Positions 4,071 through 62,900 of a DNA stretch of 64,000 nucleotides are shown in pieces. Position 1 is the first letter of the stretch. The number at the start of each line of letters is the position of its first letter. The notes below the pieces were generated by a model. It was not told where the DNA came from. It saw only the letters and a program-made list of their open reading frames with translations, and did not search any database. Made by a program: the position numbers and the translations under genes. Source of the stretch: Nannobrachium achirus (lineage: Eukaryota; Chordata; Actinopteri; Myctophiformes; Myctophidae); contig OY997657.1 of NCBI GenBank assembly GCA_963921795.1, forward strand, positions 30,615,043 to 30,679,042. The letters are read 5' to 3'.

Positions 4071-4507
4071 CAGGGGCGTCACAGGGGGGGGGGGGACTGA
4101 GTTACTAGAGCCCAAGGTGAAGGGGCCTGTCTTTAGCTATTGAAAAAAAGCAGATATGTAGATCTATGCTATTTTTGAAAAGTCGTGAAAATGTGTGCAA
4201 ATCTTTGAATGTATGTATTTTTTACGCGAACATTTGTAACTCAAATTTTGCTTCTGGGGGGTCCCTGGAACTAAAAGAGATGGGGGTCCGTTGCCAAATA
4301 TATATCATTTTTGGGGGTCCTTCACATGAAAAGGTTTGAGCACCACTTAGATATAGAAACCTAGAAGGATTTGAAATATTCAGACTCCGCACAAATTGTC
4401 ACAGCCGTGCTGTGTGAGCTTGTATATCTGCTATTTTTCAATAGTTAAAGCACAAAATGTGAGTGAATCCTTGTACCCAGGGCCCAGAATTTGGTGCGAC
4501 ACCCCTG
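4071..4507 (+). mobile_element. nested transposon, CAGGGGCGTC ends (copy 1)
   Basis: Ends are CAGGGGCGTC and GACACCCCTG, inserted inside the outer hAT-like element. It includes a G-run and two partial copies of the small hairpin family (4144-4177, 4407-4438). A related copy lies at 33556-34994. The target duplication is unclear (ACT at most), so the superfamily is not assigned. Confidence 0.65.
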
Positions 4508-4661
4508 ACTAGGATTTCCAATTTCCAATACTTTTACTTGTACTCCACTACATCTTGGATCCAAATAGGCTATTGTACTTTAGTTGCTAATTACTTTGCA
4601 GATTTTTTCAAACATTTTGTACTTTAAGTACATTTTGATGCCAACACTTTCATACTTTTAC

Positions 4662-5071
4662 TTAAAGAGGCACTCCACCACTTTTCAAACTATGTTCATA
4701 TAATTGGTCCTCACTCAAAAATAGCTTTTTTTTTTTTTTTTTCAGAGGAGGGCTGTGGGCAGGTCAGAAACCCATTGTCTTGTGACATCATCGATTGCCA
4801 ATCCAGCTTATAGAAACTGCAGGCTTTCTATTCCTGAAAAGTTGCAATTTTAAAGTGGAAGCCATTGTTCTCGCGATAATAAAAATCTAATTTTTTTTTC
4901 AAAAATATTGATATTCTTTTTTTTTAAAACGATGTCACAAGACATGGATTCTGAACTTCCCACAGCTCTCCTAGGAGACTTGGACTGAGTAGAAAAAAAT
5001 TTGATATTTTATCATGAAGTGAGGACCTATTATATGAAGACAGGTTGAAAAGTGGTGAACTACTCCTTTAA
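4662..5071. mobile_element. TTAA-flanked MITE (CACCACTTTTCAA ends), copy 1
   Basis: The arms begin TTAAAGAGGCACTCCACCAC and end in its approximate inverse (GTGGTGAACTACTCCTTTAA). It is non-coding, with A/T-rich inner sequence. A related copy lies at 35640-36003. TTAA ends suggest a piggyBac- or Kolobok-type source. Confidence 0.7.
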
Positions 5072-5559
5072 AGTTGTACCATGTAACTTTTTTTATAAAA
5101 CAAATCTTAAAATTGTCCTAACTCTTAAATCGCTAAAGTTTTAGAACACCCACTCCGTTATTTTCAGCTTCTGAAGCCTTCTCTTTATATGTTTTCTATG
5201 ATCCTGACCGGGGTCCGGTTTTCGCGCAAAAATTACGTCATCATACACTATCGGCCAATCACAGCGAGGGTTATACACTGCCGGCCAATCACAGCGCATC
5301 TTGAAGTGGGGTCGCTAGCTATCACAATAGGGCGGCCATATTTGTAGGCGCCCGTGTGTCTCTACTCGGGTGAAACACTCCGTTTCTCCGGAATGCCTGA
5401 ACGCACAGGAACCAGGGACCCCTCTAAAGATAGATCTCGGCGAGGTGGAGGCAGGCGGGGGTGACGCGGGGGTGTGAGGCCCGGTCCGCGGCGAAAAGCG
5501 GCCGAAAGACGCGGACGCTACTGACCACTAGTTGAGCAACTTACACAGTATAGCTTTAA
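5068..5559 (+). mobile_element. TTAA element with promoter-like module, copy 1
   Basis: TTAA at both ends; inner termini AGTTGTACCATGTAAC and GTTACACAGTATAGCT-like form imperfect inverted repeats. It contains an E2F-like TTTTCGCGC, a TTACGTCA CRE-like site, two GGCCAATCACAGCG boxes, GGGCGGCCAT, and an ATG opening a short frame (PERTGTRDPSKDRSRRGGG). It shares the left TTAA with the preceding MITE. Confidence 0.75.
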
Positions 5560-5591
5560 GTACATTTTGAATTCCGGACTTTTACTTATAT

Positions 5592-6211
5592 TTAAATAAA
5601 GGAGTAGTTCACCCCCAAAATGACTTTTCTTCTATTGATTAGTCACACCATGGAGACTTGAGTTCAATAATATATATATTCTTTTGTATTTTTTGCATTC
5701 CTAAGACAAAAAAAAAAAAAAAGATTATAAAATGTACCCGCTTGATTCTGGATGGGGACCGAAATGCATGGCCCTTAGCCTAGTTCCAGACCCTGAATCG
5801 CTAGCCACTACCCTTTAATTTTTTTGTTGAATAATGAAGTGAAACGAAATGTCAATTCAGGCTGAGTGTCAGGCTACATGGCCCTGGATGGGGACCCAAA
5901 TAAGGTCCTGGATGGGGACCCAAATGCATTTCGGTCAGAATCAATAGGGGGTAAATTTAGGGTTGAGGGTCAAGTAACCCCAATTGATTCTCACACAAAT
6001 TCATGTTTTGGTCCCCGTCCAGGGCCTTGTATTTGGGTCCAGGCCCATGCATTTGGGTCCCCATCCAGAATCAATGGGGTAAATTTACTCTAATACATTT
6101 TTTGTCTTAGGAATGCGAGAAAAACAAAAAAATATTATTGAACTCAAGTCTCCATGGTGTGACTAATCAATCGAAAAAAAATCAAACCTCGGTTCGAAGT
6201 GGAGCGGTGAA

Positions 6212-6270
<59 letters not shown>

Positions 6271-6495
6271 TGTGTGTGTGTGTGTGTGCGTGTGCGTGTG
6301 TGTTTGTGCCTGCACAACAGCGCCCCTCCTTTAACTTGTGTGGCCACTCAAGGTATTGCCAGGCTACAGACATACCCAGCCAGCCAGCCAGCCAGCCACA
6401 TAGCCAGCCAGCCACAGACATACCTGTCTATTGGGAGCGCTTTCACCGCTCCAAAAAGGCATTTGGGGGGTGAACTGCGTGAACTACTCCTTTAA
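5592..6495. mobile_element. large palindromic TTAA-type element with internal GT repeat
   Basis: The ends are AAAGGAGTAGTTCACCCCC and the inverse GGGGGTGAACTG...ACTACTCCTTTAA. Internal inverted arms (about 5626-5720 and 6095-6175, sharing CACCATGGAGACTTGAGTTC) flank a unit with repeated GGATGGGGACC blocks. A (GT)n tract (6213-6303) and a CAGC run lie in the right half. Confidence 0.65.
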
Positions 6496-7340
6496 GATAT
6501 AGTGCAGTAATAAATGTGAGTACTTTTTCCACCACTGGTATAAACAGCACCCCCTGTTGATACAGGGGCGTAAGGACAGGTGAGAGTTAGAAGTTGAGAG
6601 GTCGAGTCGGAGTGGCATGGCGACTATTTTCCTGTTGCAGACAGTAGTCAAAACGAAAGTACTATAATATGTGCCATTGCAATTGTGTCAGGTTTAGCTT
6701 ACACGTCCCTGGCTTTAAACTACGACGCTTGTGAATTGTTTCCATTGTCTTCTTATGGGATTGTTTATGTGTTCATATCTGCCAATATAGCGTAGCTACA
6801 TGCTAACATGCTATCTACTTAATTATGTGGAGTTGTTGACACGGATGTCGTCTGGCCGCACCTCTCGGATGAGCTGAACTGACTGTGAAGAAAACCCCAA
6901 CAAGACGATAAAGAGGTGGGTGCTGTACTGCCGTTGATATCTTTTTGCCATTATCATGGAGGCATAGGATATATACAGATAGTGCACCCAAAATTAGCAA
7001 GACAGTGTACTGTAAACTAAAGTGACAGTATCTTCGCAGGCTAACGTTAATTTGGCTTTATTATCTTGTTGTATATCAGTTGATTTCTAATTATTCGCTC
7101 TATGAAAATGAATTTAATGTAAATCGTGTGTACACCATGAAACGATATTTTGTGGCAGTGGTCCAGAAATGTGGCGCATTGCACCTTCAAACTACACCGC
7201 TATTTAATCCTGTGTCTGCATGTCTGGTCAGATTGTCAAACTCGGAAAAGCGCACAGTATCTATCCATATGTTCAGGCGTCATCGCCACGCTGGCTTGTG
7301 GTGCACACGTGTCAAAATTAAAATGTTGCCACGCACATAT

Positions 7341-7490
7341 TATTATTATTGATTGATTGATTGATTGATTGAATACATTATTGGAAGTTTGCACAGGAGA
7401 TACAGGATAGTACAGTTCAGTGAGTTCACTGATACAAGGTCAACTAAACGGATAGACCCCAAGAAAGCTTTTGGGCTTGTTTAAATTGGG
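7341..7490 (-). mobile_element. LINE 3' end fragment with ATTG tail
   Basis: The sequence after the (GATT)n run (TTGGAAGTTTGCACAGGA, then CAAGGTCAACTAAACGG) is the reverse complement of the 3' end of the LINE fragment at 36115-36640. A second minus-strand copy is at 35041-35180. Confidence 0.65.
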
Positions 7491-8375
7491 GTCGCTTTTT
7501 CTCAATTCATACAATATTTACCAACAAAATGAGAAGACAATAATATTACCAGAAACACCAAGAGATAAACCCTGAATGACTATATCAGGTCTGTAACACT
7601 GAGAGTGTACACATGGGAAATGGAACCCATTTGTACACAGTTGGTGTTATGGAGGTCCACTGAGAACCATAGTACTAGTGGATTACTAATATGCCATAGT
7701 GTCGCAGTAAATCAGTGTTGCTCATATTCTGAAGAAAACCATGAGAGTGACATTCAGTAATTGGGTATTATTATGAAAATAAGAACATTATAAGGGTGTG
7801 TAAAAAAAAAAATAAAAAAAAATCTAAGATTTGATATGGACAAGACCAAGTCTTCTTTACCACGGACACATTTGTCCATGTACGGGCATGTTGATGACCC
7901 CTGTCATGTGTATGTTGTGTGTGATGTCGAAAAGGTGTTGGGCCATCACGAGCCGACACCTTCAATGCGCCTTAAATTGTCATAGTTTGTACAAGTCAGA
8001 GGAATAACAAAATGTGTTTCGAAGGGTCCGTGGGGAGGAGTTCTTAAATGCCGTTCTAAAATCTACCATAGGTGAGTTCTGGTGACTGCAAACTGATATA
8101 GAATAATGACTCCCATCAAACCTTTGGTGACACCTCATGTCCTTGTATCTGGTTCATGCACACTGTGGTGCGCTGCCCTCCTCTATGTAGATTGTTGACG
8201 GACTTGCTCAACAAGCCAGCCAGTCTTGCTAGCTCTTACCACATCACATTGGTCACCCGAGGAAGAGATGCACTTCTGTTTTTCCTTCATATTACACTAG
8301 TATACATCAGTTTGATTTATTATATCACGAAGTACAATATGGTCTAAATATGTCCCTATGGTATGCAACAACTTG

Positions 8376-8377
<2 letters not shown>

Positions 8378-8446
<69 letters not shown>

Positions 8447-8550
8447 CTCTTGGACAGAGACTCTAGGAAGCTATCCAAGTGTTGTCCAACCTGTGTGGTC
8501 ACTCATGAGAGTGACCACATGCCTGCACTCAGGCTCATAGGAAGCTGTTA

Positions 8551-8593
<43 letters not shown>
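8378..8593. repeat. two (AC)n microsatellites flanking a short hairpin
   Basis: AC runs at 8378-8444 and 8551-8593. Between them the perfect hairpin at 8496-8519 has a 4-base ATGA loop. Confidence 0.9.
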
Positions 8594-8594
<1 letters not shown>

Positions 8595-9178
8595 CGCGCA
8601 CGCCGCACGAAACCTTCAAAGCCAGAGGATACTACTGTAACTTGTTTGACCACGACCACCACTCCCTGCTCACTCTCTGTTTCCTTGTAATTATCTTATG
8701 TATGTATTGTATTGATTATTCAATGTATGTAACAAAACCTGTTTGTGTTTGTATGGTTTCACCCCATTGTATACTGCTCCATCCCCTTATGCTTAAGGGA
8801 CAGAGCCAGTCAATATATACTGTATGTTTCCGGTCATTCTGTGTGATTCTCTGGTGACAGCCACATGCTGTCACTAGACTTTACCACCCGGACATGTATG
8901 CAAGTGTCTTATTCTGGTGACAGTCCATTGGACTGCCAGTAGACTAGCACACACTTTTGCTATGTTCGTTAAATAAACAAACGCTCAGAGACTCAACCTA
9001 GTGACTTCTTATTGAACACTCAGTACCGTTTTTGCCTCAGAGTGTACGATAATGTACACCCCAAAAAACGCCACCTGAAGCTCCTGTTCTCTGTGCCCCA
9101 ATAAATACCCCTCTTTCATTAGACATAACATCTTTTTGCTTGTCATCTTGGTCCAAAATCAAGCTAATATGGGCATTG

Positions 9179-10630
9179 CAGACCTGCCAACCCGTACGCA
9201 TTTTGCGTACTTTGCACGCATTTTAAGTGTCAATACGCAGGTACGCTATTTCCCCTCATTGCTACGCAACTTTGGGGGATCTGCAGCGCACGCATCTGCA
9301 GCACACTATTGAAGTGAAACATTTTTGGTCCCTGCCGTGTAGTTCCTCCCAGGCACCACTTGATGGTGTGTGAATGGGGCGCATGGCGCTGGGGAGCACT
9401 AGAACAGAAGGTATGCTCTTTTTTTGTCGTCAGAAGAAGAATTTAACCGGATGGAAAGCGGTTTGTTTTGGTTTCATGTCAGCATGTAGTCAGCTGTCGC
9501 CGCTCGGTTTGTACGTCGGAGTCGATGCAGTTGCACAGGGACAATTCGCCCCCCACAATGCTGCCTGTAGTATAACAGGTAATATATAAACGTACAATAA
9601 TATTACACTATTAAATTGCGGTCGCCACCGCTACAGCTTGTTGTGTATGAAGCCCGTGTTATACTGTACTTCGTCATACGACGGTGTTGCACGCGAGCAA
9701 AGTCGGAAAACTTGTGACGCAGGTCGTAGTACAGTAAACTGGAACATACATTGACCATGATTGGGCTTTAGAGTAAATATCCATCTCTAAAGCTATCTCT
9801 AAATGAGTATGAATGAATGAATTAGGAGGACTATATGTATTGTCAAAAACAAAGGTGAACAAGTTATTTATCACCTGTGAATATATGAAGACATTAATGG
9901 TTTGTTAACAATGAGTAGCCTGTATCCTCTATGAATGAATATACAGACTAGACGGTATGTGATCTATACACAATGTAGGCCTATATATCAATTAATGAAT
10001 GCACTAGAAACCTACATGAGTTGAATACTTTCAACTTCATGCAAATCATGCACAGAAAGGTGGTTTTATTTAGGCTGCTCAATTAACAATGTTTAACAAA
10101 GACACAGGTAAATATTTAAAGGTAAATAGCCTACCTGACAATGTAAAGCTATTTTGCTATTTGAATAACATGATTATGTTGATGTATGTTCATTCATTAA
10201 GTCACTGGTGAGACTGTTTTGCTAGTCTATTGTTAACTAACTCTGAGCAAGTGCAGTTAGTATATTTTATTAAAGATTTGCCAACAATATTGCCAAAGCA
10301 ACATTACTGTATTGCCTGGTAATACTAGCCTACTTTTTCTCCAGACCAAATGGCATTTTTATTTAAAAGGTTGTTCTAACATCTTGCCTCCTCCTATTAG
10401 TGTAAGTCAAGACATGCAATGTGCTACATTTCTGGTGTGAAATTTTGTTAACATAACTGTAAACGTCCCACCCAAAAAGGTGCATGGAACCCCCCAAAAT
10501 ATACGCTGTTTTGTGCGGGAAAACAACAAAAATTGCACCGCGGGCGCTGCGCGGGCGCTGCGGGCGCCGCGCGGGCACTTCGTGCCCGCGCATGAGTACT
10601 CAAAAAAATTTGCCAGGGTTGGCAGGTCTG
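9179..10630. mobile_element. DNA transposon with 15-bp perfect terminal inverted repeats
   Basis: CAGACCTGCCAACCC (9179-9193) and its exact inverse complement (10616-10630) bound a 1452-bp unit, flanked by the direct repeat GCATTG (9173-9178 and 10631-10636). The left end has repeated TACGCA motifs. The right end is a very GC-rich stretch of GCGGGCGC units with a GGGCACTTCGTGCCC hairpin. No transposase was seen, so it is non-autonomous. A 6-bp duplication fits few superfamilies; assignment is left open. Confidence 0.8.
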
Positions 10631-10639
10631 GCATTGTTA

Positions 10640-11455
10640 TACATGCCACAGTCAGTCATGCTCATTTCTATTGTTGCAGACCACTTGTATGGATGCAGAT
10701 ACATTCATTCTGTTTCTCCATCCACAGTACTAAACTAGGTTTTCCTTTAATCAATTTGTTGTAAGTTAATCAATGAAAGTAACGTAACTTACTTACAGTA
10801 AGTGGTATTTTTGTTGTTAAAACGAGAAGTGTTAAATGGCTCTATATACTCTGACAGCAATCACTGCTAAAGTGTTTGTTCAGTGACAGAGGTCTCTCTG
10901 AGTCTCTGTCTCTCCGGCTTTTTAGTAAATAGGAAATACATTTTCAAGTCAGGATTCCAATATTATATCTATATATCTATATATTTATCTGATTATCAGG
11001 AGACATTATTCATATCTATCCCATACAGGAACAGGATGCAGTTGTAAGTGATTGTCAAATTTGAAAGTGAGACAAATTTGAAATTGAAACTATGCATTTT
11101 AAACTGATGAATTGATATACTGAAATTGACAACCCACCTGAAAATGCATTTTCTGTTTATTAAATAATTGGAGAGATGGGGAGACTGTATACTGTGTAGA
11201 ATTCTAACTTTTTGTTTTAACATCAAATATCACTTACACTACCTGTGTAACTTGATAATGTATATGACAATATGGTGGTGTGCAACATATAGCACCTGTG
11301 TTGGGATATCTTGTTTCAGACTGCTTTTGTGAATTTGTATATTATTCAATCAAAGCCATTTTTTAAACACAAATAAGTTTTATCTACACCTCTTATCTAA
11401 CACCTTTTTTAATATTCCACTCAAGTCCTGCCCTACCTTTTTTATATGATAAAAT
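10640..11455. other. intergenic sequence with an unclassified diverged repeat
   Basis: The stretch 10856-11190 shares blocks with 60060-60366 (AGTAAATAGGAAATACATTT-like, CAACCCACCT, GGAGAGATGGGGAGAC) in the same order. It therefore appears to be a diverged interspersed repeat of unknown class. Nothing coding was seen. Confidence 0.5.
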
Positions 11456-11467
11456 ATGTATATGATG

Positions 11468-11649
11468 GGGAGCCTAGTGGACCAGGCGCATACCAGGCAT
11501 TGCCATTGCGGCATCGATGCCAGTCAGCGTCGCCGATTCGATTCCCGATCCAGGCGACCTTTACCGCGTGTCACTCCCTGTCTCTCCCCCATTTCCTGTC
11601 AGTCTACTATCCTATCCAATAAAGGCAAAAAAAAAACATAAAAAAAAAG
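11468..11649 (+). mobile_element. tRNA-derived SINE with 12-bp target-site duplication
   Basis: ATGTATATGATG flanks the element at 11456-11467 and 11650-11661. The head has GGGGAGCCTAGTGGACCAGG, a B-box-like GATTCGATTCC, then CTGTCTCTCCCCCATTTCCT and an A-rich tail. It is the more complete relative of the SINE at 3731-3900. Confidence 0.85.
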
Positions 11650-12125
11650 ATGTATATGATGAAAGATTAATACTGTACGGTATGTGCTGCTTGTCATCCA
11701 GTGATTTGATTAAGCCTTTTTATACTGATACTTCTTAATGTCACTAATTCATGGGGATTACCCAGAGCTGATTAATAAACCTAGGCAGATGCCCTCTGTG
11801 TTCTGCCACAAACACAAATCTCTCCAGTGGAAATAATATCCATTTGCAAATTGAACAGGTCCAACATATTCCACTCTAATTCGCATTCATTTGAGGTCAA
11901 TAACAACAGATGCACTTGCACACACAGTATATGAGTATATTGACTGATGTTTGACAGTTATTTATTTTTTTGGGCTTAAAAATTGTTGTCTCTAATGTGA
12001 TGAAGTGCCAAGCTAAAATGTGAACTGATGGATTTGGAAACGTCTAAAGTAATTACCCTGTTCATGTATGACTCATGGCAGTACATTTGAACATTTGTAA
12101 AGGAAATTAAAGCCAATGTGTTGAC

Positions 12126-13284
12126 TTAAAGCTATTAGTCCATGGGCCATACGAGATGTCGGTATCAAAAAGGTGGCAAAGGTTATCATGCATTTTATAA
12201 AAGCTCTATATCAGTAGATTATATTTTGGTATGATAACCCTTTCTTAGACACATCTAAATTGGTGTTATCAGCCGCTAGAGTTGTTGTCCCATTAACTTC
12301 ACATTACAGGAAAAAAAAGCTAAAAATGAATCTGCTTTAATTAGCATAAGAGGGGTCCAACTAGGAGGTTTTCATGATGCTGAATCCATTGCAAGCATCT
12401 GTTTTGCACGAAAAACATCCGTGGGGCTAAAACGCCCCCCACAACAGTGTGAAAAGTGATGACTCATCACTAAACCATAGTCTTGTGGGACAGTTTTTAG
12501 CCCAATGAATGTTTTTTGTGCAAAACAGATGCTTGCAATGGATTCAGCATCATGAAAACCCCCTAGTTTGACCCCTCATATGCTAATTAAAGCAGATTCA
12601 TTTTTTGCTTTTTTTCCCCTGTAATGTAAAGTTAATGGGACAACAAATCTAGAGGCTGATAACACCAATTTAGCTGTGTCTAAGAAAGGGTTATCATATC
12701 AAAATATAATCTACAGATATAGAGCTTTTATAAAATGCATGATAACCTTTGCCACCTTTTTGATACCGACAACTCGTATGGCCCATGGACTAGTTGCTCA
12801 GCTAGTGGTCAGTAGCTCTATAGCAAACCGCGGTCGCGTCCGCGTCTTTCGGCCGTTTTTCGCCGCGGACCGGGCCTCACACCCCCGCGTCTGCCTCCAC
12901 CTCGCCGAGATCTATCTTTAGAGGGGTCCCTGGTTCCTGTGCGTTCAGGCATTCCGGAGAAACGGACTCCTTCACCCGAGTATTAGAGCTATAGAGACAC
13001 ACGGGCGCCTACAAATATGGCCGCCCTATTGTGATAGCGACCCCACTTCAAGATGCGCTGTGATTGGCCGGCAGTGTATAACCCTTGCTGTGATTGGCCG
13101 GTAGTGTATGATGACGTAATTTTTCCGCGAAAACCGGGCCCCGGTCAAGATCATAGAAAACATATAAAGAGAAGGCTTTAGAAGCTGAAAATAACGGAGT
13201 GGGTGTTCTAAAACTTTAGCGATTTAACAGTTAGGACAATTTTAAGATTTGTTTTATAAAAAAAGTTACATGGTATAACTTTAA
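12126..13284 (-). mobile_element. TTAA element with promoter-like module, copy 2, carrying a palindromic insertion
   Basis: Reading on the minus strand from 13284, it follows copies 1 and 3: AAAGTTATACCATGTAAC, CRE-like TGACG, paired CCAAT boxes and the PERTGTRDPSKDRSRRGGG frame. Close to its other end, a 650-bp palindromic element (12138-12790) interrupts it, leaving TTAAAGCTAT as the outer tip at 12126. TTAA is present at both ends. Confidence 0.7.
12138..12790. mobile_element. long palindromic transposon with TA target site
   Basis: Arms of about 270-290 bases (GTCCATGGGCCATACGAG at the left, its inverse at the right) pair almost end to end, leaving a short middle near 12420-12505. TA dinucleotides flank both tips, consistent with a Tc1/mariner-type target. 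No coding capacity. Confidence 0.7.
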
Positions 13285-13774
13285 TGGTTTTCCAGTTTAA
13301 ATAAAATCTTTATCATTAAGACATAATTTATACTTTGACTGTATTGGCGCTATAAATATAATAGTTTAGACTACTTAATTACTATGTGTGCCCTGGAACA
13401 GGGCCTCTATTTCCTGACTTTTGGACAGCTAGTAATGTTGTCAAATCCTAAAGGTCATCTGATGGCAAAAACTCATTAAAGAGATTTAGTTTTCCACTCC
13501 AGCCTAAGGAACCATTGAGACTAATTAGCTGCTCAGTCTAATCCAAGAGTATTGGAAGTGCTGTGTGTCCACTGATCTACATGGTCATGTCCAGTTACCT
13601 ATTTTATACTACCATAACTACTTGAAAACACTGTTAGTTGTGGCTATATTTTTCTGTTTTTCATTGACAGCTTGAGTGTTCAGTGCTGAGGGACGTGAGG
13701 GTGTATTGGCATTCATCAAACTCCAGTGTTTTTCTTGGTGGGTTAGAGGCAGTTTTAGACCAAAAACTCAATTC

Positions 13775-14509
13775 TTAAAGGGATATTCCACTTTTAAAAA
13801 CCTTTGGTCATTTTATCGTCTACTCAGGCTTTTGTGAACACCCTGGACAGTATTTTTTTAGCTTGATTCAATATTTAGATATTTGACATTAATTTTTTCT
13901 GACACTCCCCACCCAGGGCCCATAACTATATCCCATTGTAACTCCATTTTAACCATGATAGATTGATCTAAAACACCGTCTTTTTTCTGTTGACTCATAC
14001 TACCCTCCTAATACGATATTTATTTATTTATTTTTCATTTATTTTTAATTATTGTATTATTTTTCCATTTTCCCAAAAAGTTAGCGAAAAAAACATGGCC
14101 AGTCCATTGATCCAAGCCGATCAATTGATTGATAATGGAAAATAAACATGAAAAATGCACACAGCCCACCCATCAAATGAGTGTGCTGCGAACGCCTTTG
14201 AGATTTTCAAGTAGGCACTGAGCCAGAACAGGTTGAGAACCTACTGATGAAGCAGCCTACTGATGAAGGCATCGGATGCTTCTTTTCACCTGACAGCGAG
14301 GAAGAGACATTTTACCGGGACAGCAGAATCTCTCCCAGTCCCCCTCCCCGAATCCCTGCTGAACGGGTGCCTGACCAGCCATATAGTGCTGGTGCTGAGC
14401 GAGTGTTTTAGTTTTACCTCTATACCCCAATTCTTAAGACTATATACTGTATAAACCAAGCACAAAAAGAAAGGAAACTTGACTTTGGTCCATTATATAT
14501 CCCCTTTAA
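13775..14509. mobile_element. TTAA-flanked element with TTAAAGGGATAT ends
   Basis: TTAAAGGGATAT (13775) and ATATCCCCTTTAA (ending 14509) are imperfect inverse ends. The inside is A/T-rich and includes one short open frame that resembles no known protein. Confidence 0.55.
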
Positions 14510-14631
14510 TAATACCAATTTGTATTGTGTTTTATATCATTTTTTATCGTTGATTCGTCACCTTTACGACGAGGTACAGCTTGTAAGCATCGGGCATTCG
14601 AGGCATGAGCTACACAGCCAAACGTGTGGGT

Positions 14632-14672
<41 letters not shown>

Positions 14673-15292
14673 ACACAGAGAGAGAGAGAGCTTTAGCTGA
14701 ATGTTTAGCCTAGACCAGGGTCACCTCTTTATTCAGGGATGTCTGCTCTTGGCACTTAAAGGAAGGAATGCAGGATGATTGCCAGAGAATTTGGGCTTGG
14801 ATTTAGGAGCAGCGTGCTGTGCATTGCATGTGGACATTGTTTAGGGAAGTCTTTTGTGATGATTACTATGGTGATTGAATAAATGTTTAATCAACTCAGA
14901 TGGTGAGACTTAAATCAAATTCACAAATGTTACTGGCCCAGGGTATGGAAAAACAAAAAGTAGGCAACAACAGCAGTCTAGTACAGTAGACAGACCTCCC
15001 TGCTCTCCTGGATGGAAGGAAGAAAAACATGTTGTGTTAACTTAGTATTGTGTTGGGTTCATAATTCCATTCAGGTTTCACCTTTCAGTCTCTAGGTGTG
15101 TTCATGCCCGTTTGCCACATGTGTGTGAGAGGGCTCATTTGCTTGTTCAGTGGGCACCCAGGGGTGTGTGTGTGCACTGGGGCATAATTGTGACAATTGT
15201 GCTGAGCCAGCTTGTTCCTCACCTCTCATGCCTCACATTTTCCGTTGTTAAAACCCAACAACCCTTAAACCCATATTGCTTGTGTGCACGTG

Positions 15293-15362
<70 letters not shown>

Positions 15363-17180
15363 TTTAAATGCACCCTCAGTCATGTTGCATGATACAGTGA
15401 GACCTGCTGCATCATGGTGCCGGGGTTGCCAAGCGTGTCATTGATGGCAAGAAGACACTGGTGGTTAGGGCTAGGAGTCTAGAGACTTAAGAGGCCAGAA
15501 CTAAAGGCCTGTGCAATAACTGTAGCATTTGGAGGTGGAAAGGTGTGAACCAACCAGAGTTCACAGAAGGGAAGAAAACACCTGCTGCATGAGACTGCGG
15601 TCTATGACTGGGTTCTAATCAGATTCCCTTTGTCAGCACAACTCTTGGCTTTGTCAAATTGGCAATTTCCCTAATTGTATACAATTCATGGGACATGTTT
15701 GTACTGTACTTTAAATGATGTGCCTAGACCCAGGTACCAGACTGGTGTGTCCTAGTCATTTTACTCTACAGTCTCTCAAAAAAAGAATATTATTTGTTTG
15801 TCATTGAATTGGTTTAGCATGTTTCATTTTGTATTGGCCATGTCTGAATGACGTCCTATTGTTGGTTGCTGAGGCGATGGAGAATTTTACTCATTCACTT
15901 TCAATGTGGATATTATGAGAGTAGGTCTGTGCCTGGCCCTGTGGTGGGTCATTTCACTTGTTGCTGCTGCTTGATGTTTTTTTTGTAAGATATGTTTTTG
16001 CAGTTGAAACATTGAGGCTGCCTGCAAGCACAATGCTCTCCAGTGACTCTTGTCATTGAAGATATTAGGGTTGGGATATAGCTCCCTCCATTTCTTCACA
16101 TAGAAGTCCCTTCATCTCTGACTTGTGTGTACTGGGTGCTTGCCACACATATGTATGTATGTCATCGTGCACCAAACTCCTTTTGCACACTTTCTCATTG
16201 TTTTATTTTATTTTTCTTTCTTTAATGTCAGCACTTTGGGACATGATTTGTGATATACTGGGCTATAATGAAATTTGACTTTGCTTGGTTAGCAGCTGAA
16301 GAGCTCATATGTTGAACTGCTCATAAATTGGTTTGTGTGTCAGTATGTTTACAAACTATGATTGCATACCCCAGGGATGTAAGGCCTTGTGTGGCATTTC
16401 TGCTTATGTGTGTATGTATGTGTATCTACTGGTACAAACTTGATTAACAAAAACAAACAAAGTGTACTTCCTCTTACAATAGAGAATATTCAAATGTGAC
16501 TTTTGACATGCTTGGCCAGTGATTTAACCAAAATATCAGCGCTGCCTTTCTCAGAATGTAAACACACCTAAAGTTTGTCTCTGTTCGCACACTATGTGAC
16601 CGAATATTCTTTTTTTAATATTGTGTTTTTCGTGTGTGTGTGTGTGTGTGTTTACACATGCATGTATAATATTTGATATGTGTCCATTTATGTATTGTAT
16701 GTTTAAAGACATATTTACATAACTGCTATAGAATATAGAGGAAGCAAGTCTTTACTCTTTGAGAATGTCACAGCGTGAGACAGAACGCTACACAATACGG
16801 GCTAGGCCTTTTGGAAATCCAAATGAAGACACTTTCTCCTTGAACTGTTGATTCAGTGACTGTGCACCCACAATGTATTGCCAGCAGTCAGAAATGTTCC
16901 CCTATTTACATTCCGCACTAGGAATGTCTGCCTCGGATTTTCCACTGTTTGTGGGAAAGTGTTTCGGAAGTACAACAGAACAGCAGGCTTTGCTATTGAT
17001 GAGACCTTTGATAATTCCATTTGTCATGTGTTACATGGTCCTTACACTTCACAGCAGAGCAAAGAGGGGACCACTTTAAGAAAGAATTCCACTTGTCATG
17101 TGTTATTCCAATTCACAACAAAGAGGGGATCACATTAATAATGAATTCCACATCAGCCACCTTGCCTTCTGTATTTCCTT
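14510..17180. other. intergenic sequence upstream of lclat1; no gene seen
   Basis: Contains (AC)n at 14634-14672 followed by an AG run to 14690, (AC)n at 15299-15360, and a short GT run at 16634-16650. A possible L2-type LINE 3' end lies near 16130-16280 (GGGCTATAATGAAATTTGAC). A diverged tandem repeat of about 60-72 bp starts at 17013 and 17085 (AATTCCA.TTGTCATGTGTTA). A 5' UTR exon of lclat1 could lie here, but none stands out. Confidence 0.5.
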
Positions 17181-17184
17181 TTAT

Positions 17185-17896: not shown

Positions 17897-18004
17897 ATGC
17901 CTTTGTATAACCAATTAAAGGTATAACTCGATTACACTGCACCATCTCCAACATTTAGCTGGTGTGCCATCATGAACTTTCTCCCTGCTGTTCCTCCCAC
18001 AGAT

Positions 18005-25092
<7,088 letters not shown>

Positions 25093-32907: not shown

Positions 32908-33190
32908 GAAAGTAACTAAGTACATTTAAGTAATACAAGTTTGAGGTATTTGTATTTCCAATTTTCAATATTTTTACTTCTACATCTACAGAGGCAAATA
33001 TGGTACTTGTACTCCCTATGGTAAACTTTAGTTACTTACTGTTGTAGACGCATTGTGAGCTTGTAGATCTGCTTTTAGACATTTGAAAACTAATGGGACA
33101 CTGCCTCTAATGAGTACTTTTACTTTTGTTACTTCAAGTACATTTTGAAACCAATACTATAAAAACTGTGAGTACTTTTTTATACCACTG
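32908..33190 (+). mobile_element. fragment of the CAGTGGTG hAT-like family
   Basis: Shares AGTAACTAAGTACATTTAAG and the terminal TACCACTG with the element at 4016-6537. It holds a right arm of the small hairpin family (33051-33076). Confidence 0.6.
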
Positions 33191-33310: not shown

Positions 33311-33560
33311 ACGCTTTCGTCCGTGAAACGGTTTCCTACCTTTTAGAATTCGTTTTTTGGCAACAAATCTTCTCGGCTGTAACGAATCCGATGTCACCGA
33401 TATTTTCAGTGTGCTTTCACTTGAACATCAGTTGTTTGTGCGGATCGTCGTCGTCGTTGCTTTGTTGTTCTTTTTCAGCTGTCCCTGTTCTCTCCACCAG
33501 TATCAACATCCGGTCATGGATGACGTAGCTGGCTGCTGCTGCATGTGCACGTGCCCAGGG
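33311..33560 (-). promoter_or_regulatory. candidate ypel5 5' non-coding exon and promoter
   Basis: On the minus strand a strong splice donor (AAGC|GTAAGT, donor GT at 33312-33311) lies about 1.8 kb upstream of the ypel5 start codon. Upstream is CpG-containing sequence with a TGACGTA CRE-like site near 33520. Vertebrate ypel5 has a non-coding first exon, so this is a reasonable place for it. The exon start is not defined. Confidence 0.35.
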
Positions 33561-34028
33561 GCGTCGTCACAAGGGGGGAAAGGTGGGACTGAGTTACTAG
33601 GGCCCAAGGTGGAGGGGCCCTATTTTATATTTTATATTGAAAAATAGCAGATATACAAGCTCTGCAAAACGTCTTGAAAATGTGTGCAAATCTTTGAATA
33701 GCCTATGTATTTTTTAAGTGAACATTTGTAACTCAAATTTAGCTTTTGGGGGGTCCCTGGAACTATATATTTTGAGATGGGGGTCCTTGGCCAAATACAT
33801 ATCATCTTGGGGGTCCTTCACATGAAAAAGTTTGAGCACCACTGACATAGAAACATAGATTTTTCAAAAAAGAAATCACGATTTTAAAAAAAATCACACC
33901 CGTGTGAACTGAGCGGTGGTCGTGGAGGCTGCGCAACAGCAAAACAAATATATAATAATAATAATAATTATAATAAAAAATATTTAAAAAATATTTAAAA
34001 AATAATAATAATAAAAAAATATATATAT

Positions 34029-34053
34029 GGGGGGGGGGGGGGGGGGGGGGGGG
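34029..34053. repeat. poly-G run
   Basis: Twenty-five consecutive G after an AT-rich tract; a likely G-quadruplex former and a likely sequencing or assembly weak point. Confidence 0.95.
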
Positions 34054-34369
34054 TGGTGGTGCTTGCTTGCGTGTGAGAGAGAGAGCCATCCATCCATCCA
34101 TGTCACTCAGGCCACCACTGGTATTGCAGTTGATGCTCAGGGCAGACTAGACTCAACAGCACCTCTCTGGTCACCAGGGGTACTTAGGCTACATACGGAC
34201 CCACATACATAGACGGCTACATACGGACCCACATACATAGACGGATACACACACGGCCACGCTATGGAGACGGTGTGACCACCGCTCAAAAAAAAAAGCA
34301 GATCTACAAGCTCGCAGCACTGCACTCGGTGCTGCACTGTGAGCTTGTATATCTGCTATTTTTCAATAG

Positions 34370-34871
34370 TTAAAGTTATACCATGTAACTTTTTTTATAA
34401 AACAAATCTTAAAATGGTCCTAACTGTTAAATCGCTAAAGTTTTAGAACCCCCACTCCGTTATTTTCAGCTTCAAAAGCCTTCTCTTTATATGTTTTCTA
34501 TGAGCCTGACCGGGCCCCGGTTTTCGCGGCAAAATGACGTCATCATAATATTGGCCAATCACAGCGAGGGTTATACACTGCCGGCCAATCACAGCGCATC
34601 TTGGAGTGGGGTCGCTAGGGCGGCCATATTTGTAGTCTCCCGTGTGTCTCTATACTCGGGTGCACGGTGAAGCATGGGTGAAGGAGTGTATCTCCGGAAT
34701 GGCTGAACGCACAGGAACCAGGGACCCCTCAAAAGATAGATCTCGGCGAGGTGGAGGCAGACGCGGGGGTGTGAGAACCAAAAAACGGCCGAAAGACGCG
34801 GACGCGACCGAGGTTTGCTATAGATAGAGCTACTGACCACAAGTTGAGCAACTTACACAGTATAGCTTTAA
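34370..34871 (+). mobile_element. TTAA element with promoter-like module, copy 3
   Basis: The flanking TTAA is at 34370-34373 and 34868-34871. The host sequence (ATAG|TTAA|AGCAC) exists uninterrupted at 4441-4453, which proves the insertion site. It has a TGACGTCA CRE palindrome, two CCAAT boxes and the longest version of the short frame (AERTGTRDPSKDRSRRGGG, then RRGGVRTKKRPKDADATEV). Confidence 0.85.
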
Positions 34872-35040
34872 AGCACAAAATAATGCATAATAATGCATTC
34901 CCAGTCTAAATGGGTTAAACCCCCTCCCCTTATGAAGAACATTCATGGGGGGCCCTCGCAGTGAATCCTTCCATCATTTGGTGCGACACCCCTGCATGAG
35001 TCCCATATCCCAGAGACACGCAGCCCCTCCAAGGGGCTAC

Positions 35041-36640: not shown

Positions 36641-38440
<1,800 letters not shown>

Positions 38441-38507
38441 GTCTCTCATACTGAGGAAGAGCAGGGAGGAACAATCCTGACTAGGTCCTCAGATAACACC
38501 CCACATC

Positions 38508-54978
<16,471 letters not shown>

Positions 54979-55267
54979 AACTCGCAGTAGTGCTGTACTT
55001 ACTGTGGACTCTGGGACATATACTGTACTAGCCCTTACCCGTTCAAAGATATGAGCTCCAAAATGATGTGCAGTGTGTGGGTTATGGGATGTGCACTGTG
55101 CATACAGTATATGAGGGATGGAAAGTAACTTTAACTGGTGCTGGCATGATAATATGTAGGAGCATCAATGTAAGAAATACCCGTTCCATTTAACGGCTAC
55201 AGAGATGCTGTGTACCGATCTGCATGATTTTTGGACAACATCTGTAACAGGGCCCGCCCGCCCGCAC

Positions 55268-55325
55268 ACACACACACACTCCCCCCCCCCCCCCCCCCCC
55301 CCCCCCCGTGTGTGTGTGTGTGTGT
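55268..55325. repeat. (CA)n, poly-C and (GT)n compound tract
   Basis: CA units, then 27 consecutive C (55281-55307), then GT units. The sequence after it (ACAACAGCGCCCCTCC.TTAA) also follows the GT tract at 6213-6303, so both belong to one repeat. Confidence 0.85.
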
Positions 55326-55560
55326 GGGTTTGTGTGTGATTGTGCATGGCCTGAACAACAGCGCCCCTCCCTTAACATGTGTGGTCACAAAAGGTACTGT
55401 AGGCTAAATAGATATAGATACACCATAAAAATGCAAATATACAGCATATGATTTGTGAAAGTGACAAACGGGCTTCACAGTTATGTTAGGTGTGTTCATC
55501 TGCTAATGGTGATGCGATTTCAGATCAATTGCTCCAGCCACTGAGGAGAAACGCTGTTTC

Positions 55561-55593
<33 letters not shown>

Positions 55594-55600
55594 CTCACTC

Positions 55601-55641
<41 letters not shown>

Positions 55642-55645
55642 CTCA
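55561..55645. repeat. (ACAG)n microsatellite
   Basis: ACAG units, twice interrupted by CACTCACTCAG. Confidence 0.95.
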
Positions 55646-56364
55646 CTCAGACATTCGCAAAATTATAGTATAGATGTGGGGGCAACACTTAATTTTAACT
55701 ACGCAGAAAACATCATTCAAACTGTAATGTGTAATTCTGGAAGAATATGAACAACTAATACTAGGCTGACAACACATGAGGTGAGGTGGTGTCCAAGGCA
55801 GTGATCATGCATTCACACCTTTGGGATTCACACCCAATTTGTACACTTAGATGATGTCCCAGGCTGAGTTGCCTTAATTATTGTCCTTTTCCCTTAAACA
55901 ATGATTTCCCTTGGTGGTAATAACAACAATACACTCAGAGTTGTCATTTTGTTATTTAGAAAGTTATAAAGGAAGAATTTTGTGATGAAAATGTGCACTT
56001 TGTGGTAGCAACAACTGCCACTTAAATTTCAGCTTTTGGATAATTGTTTGTAAATATTGTTTTTATAACATTAAAGGTTCAGATTGGAATTTGACATAAA
56101 ATGTGTCAGTGATTGCAGAAATGTGTACAGCTATCAACAAACCAATTTAAATGTTTTGTACTTATTTGGAAAAAGTACAATTAAAATATATAAAAAAAAA
56201 AGAATTTGCCCCCGGCTGTATTCAAGTGGGAGTGAGAGACATTTGTTTTGTACCTTGTAGGCCAACACAAGAGAATCACCATTTCCAATAATATCACAGT
56301 TGATATCATTCAATTAGGATTCACATGAAACTTTATGAACATGATGTGATGATCCAAAGTAGCA

Positions 56365-56833
56365 CAACAAGGGTCTTCAACAGGGGGTCCGGGACCCCTA
56401 AGGGGTGAGAGTTACAATAGGGGTCCTCCAAATCTTTGCATGTGTGATCGAAACTTTTTTCTCATTTTTTATATTAACCACTTGAACCCTAACCTCGCCT
56501 ACCAGGCTTTCTACTTGAACCCTAACCCCCAGCGTGAGGCGTTGTGAGCTTGTAGATCTGCTATTTTTGGCAAAGAGGTTTGGTGTGGATGGGGGATAGT
56601 ACAGAGTGAAAGGTCAAGTTTATTTAATAAACTAGGCCTATTATTGACAGTTCAAGTGGTTAAATATCAGAAAACACAAATTGACAATTTGACATGAATC
56701 CAAAATACACTGATGATTGCGCTGTCAAACAATGAAACTATATGGAATCTATGAAAAGATTATGGGGGTCCCTGCTTCATCTCTCTCTCAACTAAGGGGT
56801 CCTTGGCCTGGCTGAAAACGTTGAAGACCCCTG
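56365..56833. mobile_element. hAT-like element, second copy of the 48945 family
   Basis: Shares GGGTCTTCAAC and GTTGAAGACCCCTG ends and inner blocks with 48945-49399. AAGTAGCA at 56357-56364 and 56834-56841 is a perfect 8-bp duplication. It ends 103 bases before the ppp1cb start codon and carries a right arm of the small hairpin (56541-56567). Confidence 0.8.
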
Positions 56834-56936
56834 AAGTAGCATATTGACTGCTGTATCCCTGCCCTGGCCTATCAACGCCCTCTGGCGTGCGTTGAGAGAA
56901 TTGAACCGACGAACATTTTGAAACAGCAGTTTGAAG

Positions 56937-59900
56937 ATGGCGGAGAGTGAATTGAACGTGGACAGCATCATCTCAAGGCTTTTGGAAGGTGCGTAAGATA
57001 AAATCAAATGGAATTTAAGCAACCACCAGCATTTTCATTCTTGTTGAATCGGTCCTGTAGTTTGCTATGTACATGCAGTTGATTCACGAGACAAAAAATG
57101 TAACTGGAGAGCATAGGCTAGCGATACCATTAGCTAACGTTACGTGGTGGCTAATGTTAATAGCTACATACACATTTATAGCCTATTTCTATTTCGTCCC
57201 GCCAGCCTGTGTGTCGCTTGACAGAAAATACGTATTTTAAACATTAAAAGGCTGACGTATTTCAGATGAGAATTATTGTAATATTTGTCAAGGGGCAGTT
57301 TCTGGAAAGGCTCGGGCCACGAAGTATAAAATGACCTGCTGTCGTGTTTATAAACAATCTGTCAGCAGCAGGGAACGCCTGCCTGCCTACTTTCTCTGTT
57401 TACTGTTCACTGTACTGGGTCGTTAGGTCCACAGCAAACACAGTACAGGTAAAAGTATCAATACTGCATCGTAGAAATAGTACTACGTCCGTAAAAGTCC
57501 GGGATTCAAAATTTACTTGGGTAAAAAAAGTACGAATGGACTGGCATCAAAATGTACTTCCACTAATAGAAAGTGCTCATTATGCAGAATGTACGTAGCA
57601 TTTCAATTTTTCAAATGTATACAAATCTTTTGAAAATAGACGAAGATCGGCTATTTTCTAAAGGCTGAAATGTATATAGGGTTGGATACTGTTGTTAAGG
57701 TTTTGTAATTATGATCAAAATCTAACTAGTAAAAAAAAGTAACTAGTAATAACGTTTTCAAATAATTGTAGTTGAGTAAAAGTAATATATTTGTATCCAA
57801 GATGTAGTGGTGTAGAAGTAAAGGTATTGGGAATTGGAAATACTAGTAGGAAAGTAAAGTACAAATAACTCAAAATTGAAGTACAGTACTTAAGTAAATG
57901 TACTTTAAGTTACTTTACACCACTGCATTTATCTGTCTTACTTGAGAGTTGCAATGTGAAAGTTTGGTCGCTGGTTGGGAGACAACTCCTAAAGCTATGA
58001 ACCAGAGCGTTAATATGGCATTGTTGTATTCGGATCAATGTTTAAAATATCAAAATGTTAAATGCCCCTTTGCTCCTCTGTACTAGCTGGCATGTCTTGT
58101 AACTTACAACTTGAGTAACTACTCTACTAACTGTACATGTGTCACACAAAAATACAATGACATTTCCCAGCGATGTGATCATCACAGCAACCATGCCTTA
58201 TGGCCTATCCTATCAGCTAGTATGCATTTTGTGAAAGCATATACCTTATCTGACTGACACACTTGGCTTGTAGGTGGACATCTTGCTGTGAGGCAGTAGC
58301 AGTACAAACAGAGATAAAATACTATTCATGGGTTGCATTTGTAGTCCTAAACCGGCCATATTGAGGACCACAGGTGTTCAATTTGTCTCATTGGCATAGA
58401 ACCAATGTTCTATGTTAATCAAAACACCTGTGTTGGTCCTCAAAATGGCTGGTGTAGGACTACAAATGCAACCCATGAATACAATAATATTCAGCCTATT
58501 ACATAATCATTGAAATAGGACAATGACCAAATATAGCAATCACTGGTACAAGGGCCACCAATACTTTTCTGTAGCCAAATCTCACTTCATTCTAGTGCTG
58601 TGCCGGGTCCGGGGCTTGTTAAGAGCTGACTGTTTGCCAGCTTCGGAATGAAAGTTCAATTTACGTTTCCCTGGTGAAGCATCTGTTGAATATAGACATG
58701 GCCACCCATGAACCTTCAAAGCACCTTCAGGCCACCTTGGCACAGCTTCCACAAGAATGTGGAACTGTTGGAAGGACAGACCAGCATGTCTGTTCACAAC
58801 TAGGTTCTCAAGCTCTTCCACTATCTTTGAATGTTTAGTCTGTTATTCTGCCTTGTCATCTGTCATTTATGATTTCGGGAATTACTTGCGCAACTTGCGC
58901 AACATCCACTTAGAAAATAGATTTCCTTGTTAAAATAAATTCTGCATCAAAACTCAAAAAAGGAATATTGGATTTACAGTATGTTGGCTCTGGAAAGTTG
59001 ATTATATCTCAGCTGCAATGCCCACTGCACCTAAATTTGATCTGATCTGAGGGAATCCAGTGAAACTGCTTTTTGTGCTTTGCCTTGACTAATGTTTTAA
59101 GATGTAGCTAAGCCTACTACCAGTAAGACTCCCTAATCAGGAGATAAGCGACCGTTGGTCGCTTATCTCCACAAATAGGCCAAAAGTTTGTTTTACCAAT
59201 TATCAAGACATACGGGCAGTTGACAGTTTGCCATGGTTACTCATTGAAGTTGAATCTCCATATATGGAGATAACCTACGCATCACACTAAGTCTGACCTC
59301 ACCAGCCCATATTTGGGCATGAGCAACTTATGTCTCCATATATGGAGATATGATGACATCACACAGTCCTCAGCCGATGATTTGGCGTGATGTCATACAA
59401 TACACAAACGAGCCCTACAGTATAAAGGGGCAATTCTTGCCAGGAAAGAAGCATTTCTTCGACTCAGACCTTATCGCCAGCTTATCTCCACAAATAGGCC
59501 AAAAGTTTGTTTTACCAATATAAGAGTTGGTTGCTAGGGTAAAAAACATGGTTGCTATGGTAAACAGTTGGTTGCTAAGGTAAAAAAAGACATGGTTGCT
59601 ATGGTAAACAGTTGGTTGCTAGGGTAAAAAAAATGGTTGCTATGGTAAACAGTTGGTTGCTAGGGTAAAAAAACATGGTTGCTATGGTAAACAGTTGGTT
59701 GCTAGGGTAAACAGTTGGTTGCTAGGGTAAAACCATGGTTGCTAAGGTGGTTGCTAACGTACACTAACAGACCAGCAACAACAGACTGTTGCCACAGCAA
59801 CGTACACAAAGGTTCATACTGATGTCAGCAGTGTGATGTCATACTGATGCGGAGATATGAGCAGGGCAAAGGTGTGACGTGTGACGTGACGGACGGCCGG

Positions 59901-62900
59901 TGGAGGTTTTGATACTAAACTGCGACCTTACGGTCGCAATTAACTCCAGAGGTTTTTCACAGCTAGTTTATCTGGGCTTTAGTATTTTTTGGCATTTTTT
60001 AGGCATCTAAAACCTGGTCCTGAGTCCCTACTGAGTGTGTGCTTATTTAGTCGACTTAAAGTGTCACTTTCTGTTGTCAATTTTAGCTCTATATTCTGAT
60101 AGTAATGATTGATGTATTTTGTTCAGTAACAGGGTCTCTCCAGCAGCTCTTTAGTAAACATAAAATACATTTTCAGGTTGCAATATCAATTTGATCCAAA
60201 CAGGAGAGAGAACTCCTACAGGAGCAAGTGAAATTGGAAGTGATGAAGTAAGCAGACAAAATTAGAACTTGGAACAAATTGAAGCTGATTATTGGGTACT
60301 CTTTCCTGATTGGATGAATTTGTCAACCCACCTCAGAATTAAGAGCTGGAGAGATGGGGAGACCCCTAATTGACTTTCCGGGTTGGACGCCACGATTTTC
60401 TTAAAGGGCCAGTTCACCTCTGGGGCAACCAGATCTTATTTTATTGTTGTTTGGGACACGATCAACACAATCCTGGTTATTTTTTTGTGTTCAATCTGTG
60501 TTTTGAGATATTTTTGTATTTCAGCATGAATGATGATGCTTTTTGCATCATATGATGCAGCATGATGACTCATATGATGCAAAACGCAGTCGCGTGCGTG
60601 TCCATAGTCCACAATGATGCACTGATCGTGCACGACGATCGCGAACGCAAACTCATGTGAATCTGAGCTGCCATTCTCCAGTTAGCCCCAGGCCAGCAGT
60701 GTGTTTACAAAGTGAGCAAACAGTCAGAAACAAAGTACAGAGAAACAGCTTCTTCTGGCCCAAAAAAATGCGTATTCTGCTCCAGGTTACTTAGTAACCC
60801 CGGAGCGGCGATCCGATTTTGGATTTTTTAAAAATATGAAATCAAATTAAATTCTCTGGTTTCTCGGGTGAAGCGGCCTGGACAAGTTCAACAAATGTTG
60901 TATAGCAATGGTTATCATATACAGCTTTTACAAAAACTACCTTTAAGAACCAAATTGCTTAAGAAGTGCCAGCCTACAGAAATGCCAAACGGTAACAATA
61001 GGTGTCGTTAACATTATATTATAATGTTAACGACACTGAGCAGTCAAACTTTGCTCACTCAGTCAGTAATGATTCAGCCTTGCTATTGACTGCAGACTCA
61101 AAGCCCTGCTTAAAGCAATTTCATGCTTTGTGACATTCACAGCTCTCAGATATTTGTAGGCAAATCAGATAGTCTAGAATAGATGGCTGATAAGGAAATT
61201 GATTGTGTGAAATTGATGTTGAGAAGCGCACGACCACTTTAGTGAGGTTGGTTGAGCTTTACAGCTGCTTGTTTTGTCACAGCATCACTGCAACAACAAC
61301 AACATTGCACTCATTTACTCGCCTCTTCTCTCTAGGATTTAGAGAGTTGGATTACATGACTAATGAGACTTTGAGAGAAAGTGTGTGTGCGGAGCCTCCG
61401 TGTTCATATGCATGTTTGTGCGAGTGCACGGCTGTCTGGCTGAGTGTGCTACTGCTAACTAAGCCAAGGGACACTAAGCCACACCAATACATACATTAAT
61501 CCATCTTAAACGGTTGCTTGTGGTACCATTCTGCAATTTGTCACCTGTATAGGAAACAAAGAGATGGAGAGGAAAACGCTGTAGGGGAACTGACTGCCTA
61601 ACACACTCTAATTTGGCCAGTCCTAGCTGTCCTAAATAGGAATCTGCAGTGGGTCTGGGTAGCTTGAGGGCAAAACTTTCTTCTTCGTTTCAAATGCAAA
61701 TCCTCCCACAATGCTTTGTTTAGTGTCAGAAACTGGCCGTCGACTCATGTTATTGAAACGAACAGTTGGTCACCGTTCCATTTTTACACCTATATAGCAT
61801 TACATTAATTCATTTGGACATTGACCATGGTTTACGGGTCAGTTTTACTTGAGGCTACATTATGTCTCATTATGAATGATTGTTTATGGCAGAGGACTGG
61901 CTGTTAGATAAAGGAGGCAGTCAGTGGTTATTTGTCAATGTAATGAAGGGGAAAAGAATGTCATAGATTGTTAGCTAGACCACCCTAAATGTAGGCTATA
62001 ATGTCAGTTCATCACTCAGCTCCCCCTCAATAAACTGAAGATGGAACTCAGATTTGCTCATAGATGGTGCATCAGCCAATAGCTACCTTAATAAGGAAAT
62101 TATTTTCATGTTCTCCTCTCAGCTCAAAACACAGCTCTCGAACCACCACTCTCAGCTAGCCAACAACACCAACACGTGCAATTTACTTTCTTCTGTTTAT
62201 CATCTTTATATAAATCTGTACTCTGAACCCTATGGCTGAAGTCCAGAAAGTAGGCTTAGGATCAGAACCGATAAAACCCACACCATTTCTGAAGAAGCAA
62301 GCAGCCTTCATAGTCTTAAGCAACAGCTCTGCTGTGTAGAATGTCTTAGCTTACCCGAGCTGAGGCTCAACTCTATAAAGCTTTAGAAGCACTACGCACA
62401 CTATCAGGGACATGCTGGGCCCCTGATTCAGCCCGGGAAAAAGTGTTGGAGAGGCCCTCATTGTGCACTATAGAGAGAGATCTCTCTCTATAACGCTGCT
62501 GCTACTCAAAGATTTGTGACAAAGTGACAAGCCAGTGGGCCAATTACATGAGTTATTATATTTTGTCCTTGTTGGGCGGAAACCTTGTATGTCCAAAACC
62601 GTTTGTTTTGTATTTATCATTTTAAAAATGATTTAAACTAGTGAAAACAGCCAATCTGTGCTTGTAGATCTGCTGTTTTCACTACTTTTGTGTGACGACA
62701 TTGTATGATGAAGCAAGGCTTCGCTTTGCGAAAAAATGTACAAATTTGAAACTTGGAGGTACGAGGTTTCTGCCCGACAGTGACGATTTACTTTGTTGGC
62801 AGCCCAGCCTCCAAAATGGAACAAAGGCCGACATTTTATTTTAATTTTTCTCCTAATGGCCGGCCTGGACCGGCCGAGAATGAACCGGCCGTTCGGGAGT

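Follow-up and report, generated by a model that had tools for sequence, protein, structure and literature searches.

A ~72-bp palindromic hairpin in small hAT-type transposon families of Nannobrachium achirus

Main finding

A near-perfect palindrome of ~72 bp recurs within and beside transposons in a 64,000-nucleotide stretch of the Nannobrachium achirus genome (contig OY997657.1 of assembly GCA_963921795.1, positions 30,615,043 to 30,679,042; hereafter the window), and its arm is present in hundreds of thousands of copies in the assembly. The reading to which we lean is that this palindrome is a module that is found in many small non-autonomous hAT-type families as well as beside TTAACCACTT-ended pieces, and that it was amplified as cargo of such elements and only rarely captured by new ones.

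The hairpin in the window

The original prediction counted about twelve recurrences of a palindromic hairpin, and an arm or a hairpin was indeed present in all twelve intervals. A 20-base arm, with up to three mismatches, matched 12 times within nine of these loci, where shuffled sequences lead one to expect 0.01 matches, and the 17-mer CTACAAGCTCACAACGC, which lies further inward in the arm, matched nine times vs. 0.12 expected. A profile built from ten window arms found the same nine loci at E <0.01 and the copy at 62641 at E 0.17. The weakest copies, at 57633 (E 5.5) and 4144 (E 33), have profile scores level with stray matches but are recognisable by eye and by folding; the profile search of the window revealed no convincing thirteenth locus. 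When folded as single-stranded DNA, the eight two-armed copies gave z-scores from -2.0 (4144) to -9.6 (54407). A chance origin of the repeats was rejected on the basis of the arm and 17-mer counts and of a genome-wide control, in which the 26-base arm pattern read backwards occurred 0 times in 1,658,514,493 bases.

Four of the twelve loci belong to two copies of one family, A, which share their ends and have a place for the hairpin near either end. The copy A1 (4071..4507, plus strand; ends CAGGGGCGTC..GACACCCCTG) carries a collapsed hairpin at its left place (4142..4177, plus; sequence and folding) and a single arm at its right place (4407..4438, minus; arm match). The copy A2 (33556..34994, plus; ends as in A1), which contains another repeat at 34370-34871, has a single arm at the left (33638..33661, plus; arm match) and a full hairpin at the right (34288..34363, plus; sequence and folding). 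A clear 8-bp duplication was not seen around A1 or A2 in the window; perfect ones flank family A copies at the genome loci L014 and L045. Two further loci represent copies of family B: B1 (48945..49399, plus; target duplication GCATAGAA) holds a loop-deleted hairpin (49091..49130, plus; sequence and folding), and B2 (56368..56833, plus; duplication AGTAGCACA/AGTAGCATA, with one mismatch) a single arm (56541..56568, minus; arm match). C1 (54338..54685, plus; target duplication ATACTGTC) contains a full hairpin with the two paired changes noted in the original prediction (54408..54473, plus; folding), and C2 (62405..62938, plus; target duplication CACACTAT) a collapsed one (62641..62680, plus; sequence and folding). 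The 8-bp target duplications of B1, C1 and C2 are perfect, that of C2 being assigned by eye. D-type repeats hold a single arm (33051..33076, minus; assigned by eye from the sequence) and a collapsed hairpin (57632..57659, plus), the latter with a repeat end, CAGTGGTGTAAAGTAACT, at 57925-57908. The two remaining loci are full hairpins, X39 (39675..39748, plus) and X48 (48272..48341, plus), both recognised by folding and followed up by searches with their flanks. Since several copies lie in elements of one and the same family (A or B), the twelve window copies are not twelve independent insertions.

The window has other features. The repeat within A2 is one of three copies of a ~500-bp repeat starting with TTATACCATGTAACTTTTTT (34370-34871, 5068-5559 and 12792-13284), the first of which is inserted beside the A2 hairpin. 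Four other long inverted repeats, at 12130-12798, 42110-42717, 52091-52301 and 58323-58481, match their own reverse complement at 79 to 91%. The window also contains an acyltransferase gene, since the reading frames 18494-18964 and 24505-25092 match the Pfam families Acyltransferase (E 2.8e-8) and Acyltransf_C (E 4e-14).

Abundance and anatomy in the genome

A search of the whole assembly with the arm, which had been proposed together with the prediction, yielded 472,185 matches of a 26-base arm with up to three mismatches in 1,658,514,493 bases (236,546 forward and 235,639 reverse), i.e., one arm per 3.5 kb across 1.66 Gb. A sample of twenty 10-kb stretches, one from each of the contigs C1 to C20 at a position that was the same throughout (180,412 called bases), contained 56 arms of this type at the same threshold, and a profile search of the sample gave 98 arm matches, which resolved into 31 pairs and 36 single arms. 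Among all 176 hairpin loci listed, single and paired ones were equally frequent (88 vs. 88), some of the singles merely having a weak second arm.

The arm of the full unit reads GAAAATAGC(A or C)GATCTACAAGCTCACAACGC and is followed by a few family-specific paired bases (GTCGC, CTCGC or GGCAC), a small tip and the mirror arm. Pairing extends ~3 bp outward with letters that again are family-specific: of 60 hairpins, which are not independent of one another, 39, 48, and 39 show agreement at flank positions 1, 2, and 3, against a mean of ~19 and maxima of 32, 29, and 30 in 1000 shuffles. In family A, no pairing was found beyond the arms. Some loci show further rearrangements. Around 1501 and 1690 in L012, two arms with like flanks lie in inverted orientation and form a larger palindrome, and near 1950 in L047 and 1930 in L005, arms are partly repeated in tandem, as slippage would leave them.

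Carrier transposons

The recognised carriers are non-autonomous transposons of hAT type. Their ends have at least six different sequences, of which three resemble one another, and their 8-bp target duplications and short CA..TG terminal inverted repeats are those by which hAT elements are known. Among the 176 listed hairpin loci, in which the window is represented by the twelve loci only, 18 lie in 15 distinct frames of this type, whose 8-bp duplications have no more than one mismatch; the search rule itself required the CA..TG end type. The window carriers C1 and C2 come in addition to these frames. Places picked at random from these sequences fell in such frames 6, 5, 6, 5, and 8 times, and the reversed sequence gave no hAT-type frames. 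The carrier ends are CAGGGGCGTCACA (A), CAGGGGTCTTCAAC (B), CAGTGGTTCTCAAC (F2), CAGTGTTTCTCAAC (L040 and L035), CAGTGTTGATTTCG (F5) and CAGGGACATGC (C1 and C2), those of B, F2 and L040/L035 resembling one another; several of these ends we take to be common in other fish. No transposase was found among the ten window reading frames. The prediction that the palindrome lies within at least three transposon families thus proved correct, as more than three were found.

No recognised frame was present within 900 bp of the other 158 of the 176 loci. As to the immediate flanks, 163 of 238 arms fell into 24 shared-flank groups, in which the two sides of a family are counted apart, and the flanks of the other 75 were unlike any other in the sampled sequence. 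Because most loci have no recognised frame and these 75 flanks are unmatched, the carrier of most copies is not established one by one.

Sharp edges and other shared pieces

In twelve framed elements, likeness between families is confined to the hairpin span, give or take ~15 bp. The exceptions are B and F2, which have similar ends, and C2 and L040, which have different ends and share a 183-bp core with the hairpin at 89%. Likewise, the likeness between families in the window is nearly limited to the hairpin, with two weak exceptions: A2 and B1 are alike at 67% over 66 bp, A1 and X39 at 79% over 28 bp. Within family B, flanks are 80 to 90% identical over ~145 bp. Together, the distinct frames and the comparison of elements rule out that one or two transposon families account for all copies, a possibility that the original prediction had named against itself.

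Besides the hairpin, two short motifs are shared. When the hairpins in the window were masked, CAAATCTTTG was the sole 10-mer printed by the filter as common to three groups. Its five exact window copies, at 4198..4207 (plus) in A1 and at 33687, 49011, 56429 and 62507 (minus), are all in carriers (A, B and C2), and it is missing from the framed F2, F5, C1 and L040 elements. The second, TTAACCACTT, is an end found near the hairpin. Among 98 sites with at most one mismatch, a hairpin lies within 150 bp inward at 47 and outward at 6, with ~7 expected; family B accounts for many of the 47, and a perfect arm had been the reason for choosing 30 of the loci. As this end is common to A, B, D-type and X39-type flanks, the sharing may partly be due to descent. 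B2 contains a nested TTAA-ended piece (56474-56663), and a related end adjoins X39. Another repeat end, of ~40 bases (GATGCCAGGTTGAAAGTGGTTAA), occurs at L076-L081 and in the window at 39800-39860; the sequence upstream of it was unrelated in five of seven fetched places, and L075 and L080 have the hairpin.

Paired changes in the arms

It had been claimed that the two arms change together in a way that keeps them paired. In the window alone, the test of this claim is weak, as the observed value is attained in 44 of 720 permutations; the genome sample bore it out. Across 13 representatives, both sides are changed in 14 of the 34 stem pairs. Shuffles gave a mean of 4.3 and never reached 14 (0/500), and with the partner displaced by 1 to 3 columns the number of double changes dropped to 1 to 6. 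A comparison of the two arms in 61 full hairpins showed mismatches at 219 of 1830 positions. After shuffling the right arms over all hairpins, the mean was 320 and the minimum 287. Shuffling within family labels gave a mean of 259 and a minimum of 224, a contrast that is inflated, since the labels come from rough text rules and the 12 hairpins without a label were shuffled together. None of 2000 shuffles of either kind was as low as 219, in a sample in which thirty loci had been chosen for a perfect arm.

Mismatches in the unbiased set of 31 hairpins are concentrated at positions 10 (13 hairpins), 14 (12), 24 (14) and 28 to 30 (13, 10, and 8), the others having 0 to 6; those at positions 14 and 24 mainly reflect an asymmetry of family A. 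Position 10 is AA in 15, AC in 10, and CC in 2 of the 31 hairpins, and is unpaired in 13. Its A/C variation looks independent between the arms, in contrast to the paired changes elsewhere in the stem. A conserved mismatch at this position was considered and rejected, as by our arithmetic the counts are about those of independent arms.

Loss of the hairpin and flanks of solo copies

A search with the joined flanks of a B copy returned, among 3624 candidates, 40 scored places that match without a full hairpin. Of the 20 that were read, ~12 keep a piece of an arm, in seven, other short sequence lies where the flanks meet, and in one, L066, the flanks are joined exactly at the hairpin edges, which fits a deletion and an empty site alike. 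In thirteen local hairpin-poor cases, part of an arm is present at each joint. The hairpin-poor relatives mostly fit ragged deletions of the palindrome, and no case of gain or capture was seen among those read.

The joined flanks of X48 matched only themselves in the genome search, i.e., no repeated flank was detectable. Within the window, a 10-bp part of its right flank, GTGCGACACC, recurs solely at the A1 and A2 right ends, and X48 may therefore be a carrier remnant. The left flank of X39 also matched only itself, whilst its right flank is repeated and runs into a repeat end. This type of test misjudged L045, for which no left-flank relative was found, yet relatives fetched later carry a flank that is alike by eye. 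The test misses old and short flanks, and the absence of a match does not show rarity; single-copy flanks were dropped as proof of solo insertion after this misjudgement.

How the hairpin may have spread

If the hairpin is a module carried by transposons, as we are inclined to believe, it would owe its copy number mainly to the transposition of carriers that held it as cargo, and would have reached new families by rare captures, probably through copying at breaks or stalled replication forks, where palindromes can promote template switching. The complementarity of the arms could arise when one arm is recopied from the other upon folding, or carriers with a good stem might move better; collapsed hairpins and lost arms would be an alternative outcome of the same folding. 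General arm-to-arm copying fails to explain position 10, because that position varies as if the arms were independent. A more far-reaching view, which we put forward tentatively and consider possible rather than probable, is that the hairpin is a parasite of transposons: 72 bp without genes or ends of its own, passing between unlike families either through template switches at its own fold or by inserting into small palindromes, raised to hundreds of thousands of copies by the carriers' transposase, and with arms kept matched by self-templated repair.

The original prediction implied independent insertions of the hairpin, and it could be thought of as a tiny foldback element that inserts alone, often into transposons or the centres of small palindromes. 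The sharp edges in unlike families, the position of X48 between flanks without other matches in the genome, and the outward pairing over the first three flank positions, which is what insertion into small palindromes should produce, are in line with this idea. Yet in the readable frames with a target duplication the hairpin is an internal part of a transposon that was moved in its entirety, and a target-site duplication belonging to the hairpin itself, the proposed mark of insertion, was not found around the window copies. Moreover, the flank test is fallible, as the case of L045 illustrates, and the outward pairing may be a remnant of a longer ancestral palindrome; we consider solo insertion rather unlikely. 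Descent of all carriers from one ancient palindromic transposon, with a conserved core and outer parts diverged beyond recognition, would account for the inward hairpins at 47 of the 98 TTAACCACTT sites and for the presence of CAAATCTTTG in A, B and C2. Against it, carriers that differ in ends and duplications have only the hairpin span in common, the family B flanks are well preserved over ~145 bp, and it is this family that supplies many of the 47 sites, and so we regard complete common descent as unlikely.

Improbable, in our opinion, is a stem that acts in cis, as a site for transposase or a host factor or as an aid to transposition, and is selected in each family. Family-specific changes found in both arms would fit such a signal, as would the core of the Acropora CMITEs, which is more conserved than their ends and for which the authors suggested a role in transposition (PMC2872659). 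However, single-arm and collapsed copies are common, even allowing for singles with a weak second arm, and position 10 is often unpaired. We hold it to be very improbable that the hairpin is a gene for an RNA, for instance a microRNA precursor. At a relaxed threshold, mir-3145 matched the copy at 54407 with 29.8 bits (E 0.0001), but the gathering score of this family is 98, and another hairpin matches other microRNA families instead, as stems do; no Rfam family reached its gathering score in the window.

Significance

The usual view is that small transposon families originate from autonomous ones through internal deletion. A sharply bounded module in frames with different ends implies that families can also trade internal parts, and the present data suggest that transposons can share and pass on a common folded part. 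With ~470,000 arms and family-specific paired changes, the genome offers a natural experiment on the evolution of palindromes, in which the rates of arm-to-arm copying, centre deletion and capture are directly measurable. There is also a consequence for annotation: clustering of repeats by likeness may merge unlike families via the shared core, as it did in our first clustering, which placed 125 of 176 loci in one cluster.

Comparison with known systems

Searches for relatives gave no matches in viral contigs, and a scan of genome contigs with the arm gave four single 19-mer matches in bacterial assemblies, where about two are expected by chance. The arm letters matched none of the paper texts searched, and no report of the palindrome sequence was found in a literature with sparse coverage of subscription journals.

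Foldback elements have inverted folding arms in common with the hairpin, for which, however, no ends or target duplication of its own were found in the window copies. The V domain that is spread by MER6 forms, to our knowledge, no hairpin. It is likewise a conserved domain that rides on a DNA transposon, but it is derived from SINEs (PMC6887750). The fish hAT transposon Tol2, with its internal Angel element, also holds an internal palindromic repeat; it is one family as portrayed in the source, and the likeness is one of description (PMC8151067).

The nearest precedent is found in corals. The Acropora CMITEs are several small families of elements of ~100 bp with different terminal repeats, TTAA duplications and ties to piggyBac; their internal core of ~75 bases, the origin of which was unknown to the authors, is better conserved than the ends, and ~1600 copies were estimated in one species (PMC2872659). 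Like this core, the hairpin is common to families with different ends. In contrast, its carriers, where frames are readable, are hAT-type with 8-bp duplications instead of TTAA duplications and piggyBac-type ends, the TTAACCACTT-ended pieces being nested or adjacent; the core is a palindrome whose two arms match, and such arms number ~470,000. Because duplications and ends differ and the core is palindromic, the hairpin is no member of the CMITEs, and the coral elements are its closest parallel (PMC2872659).
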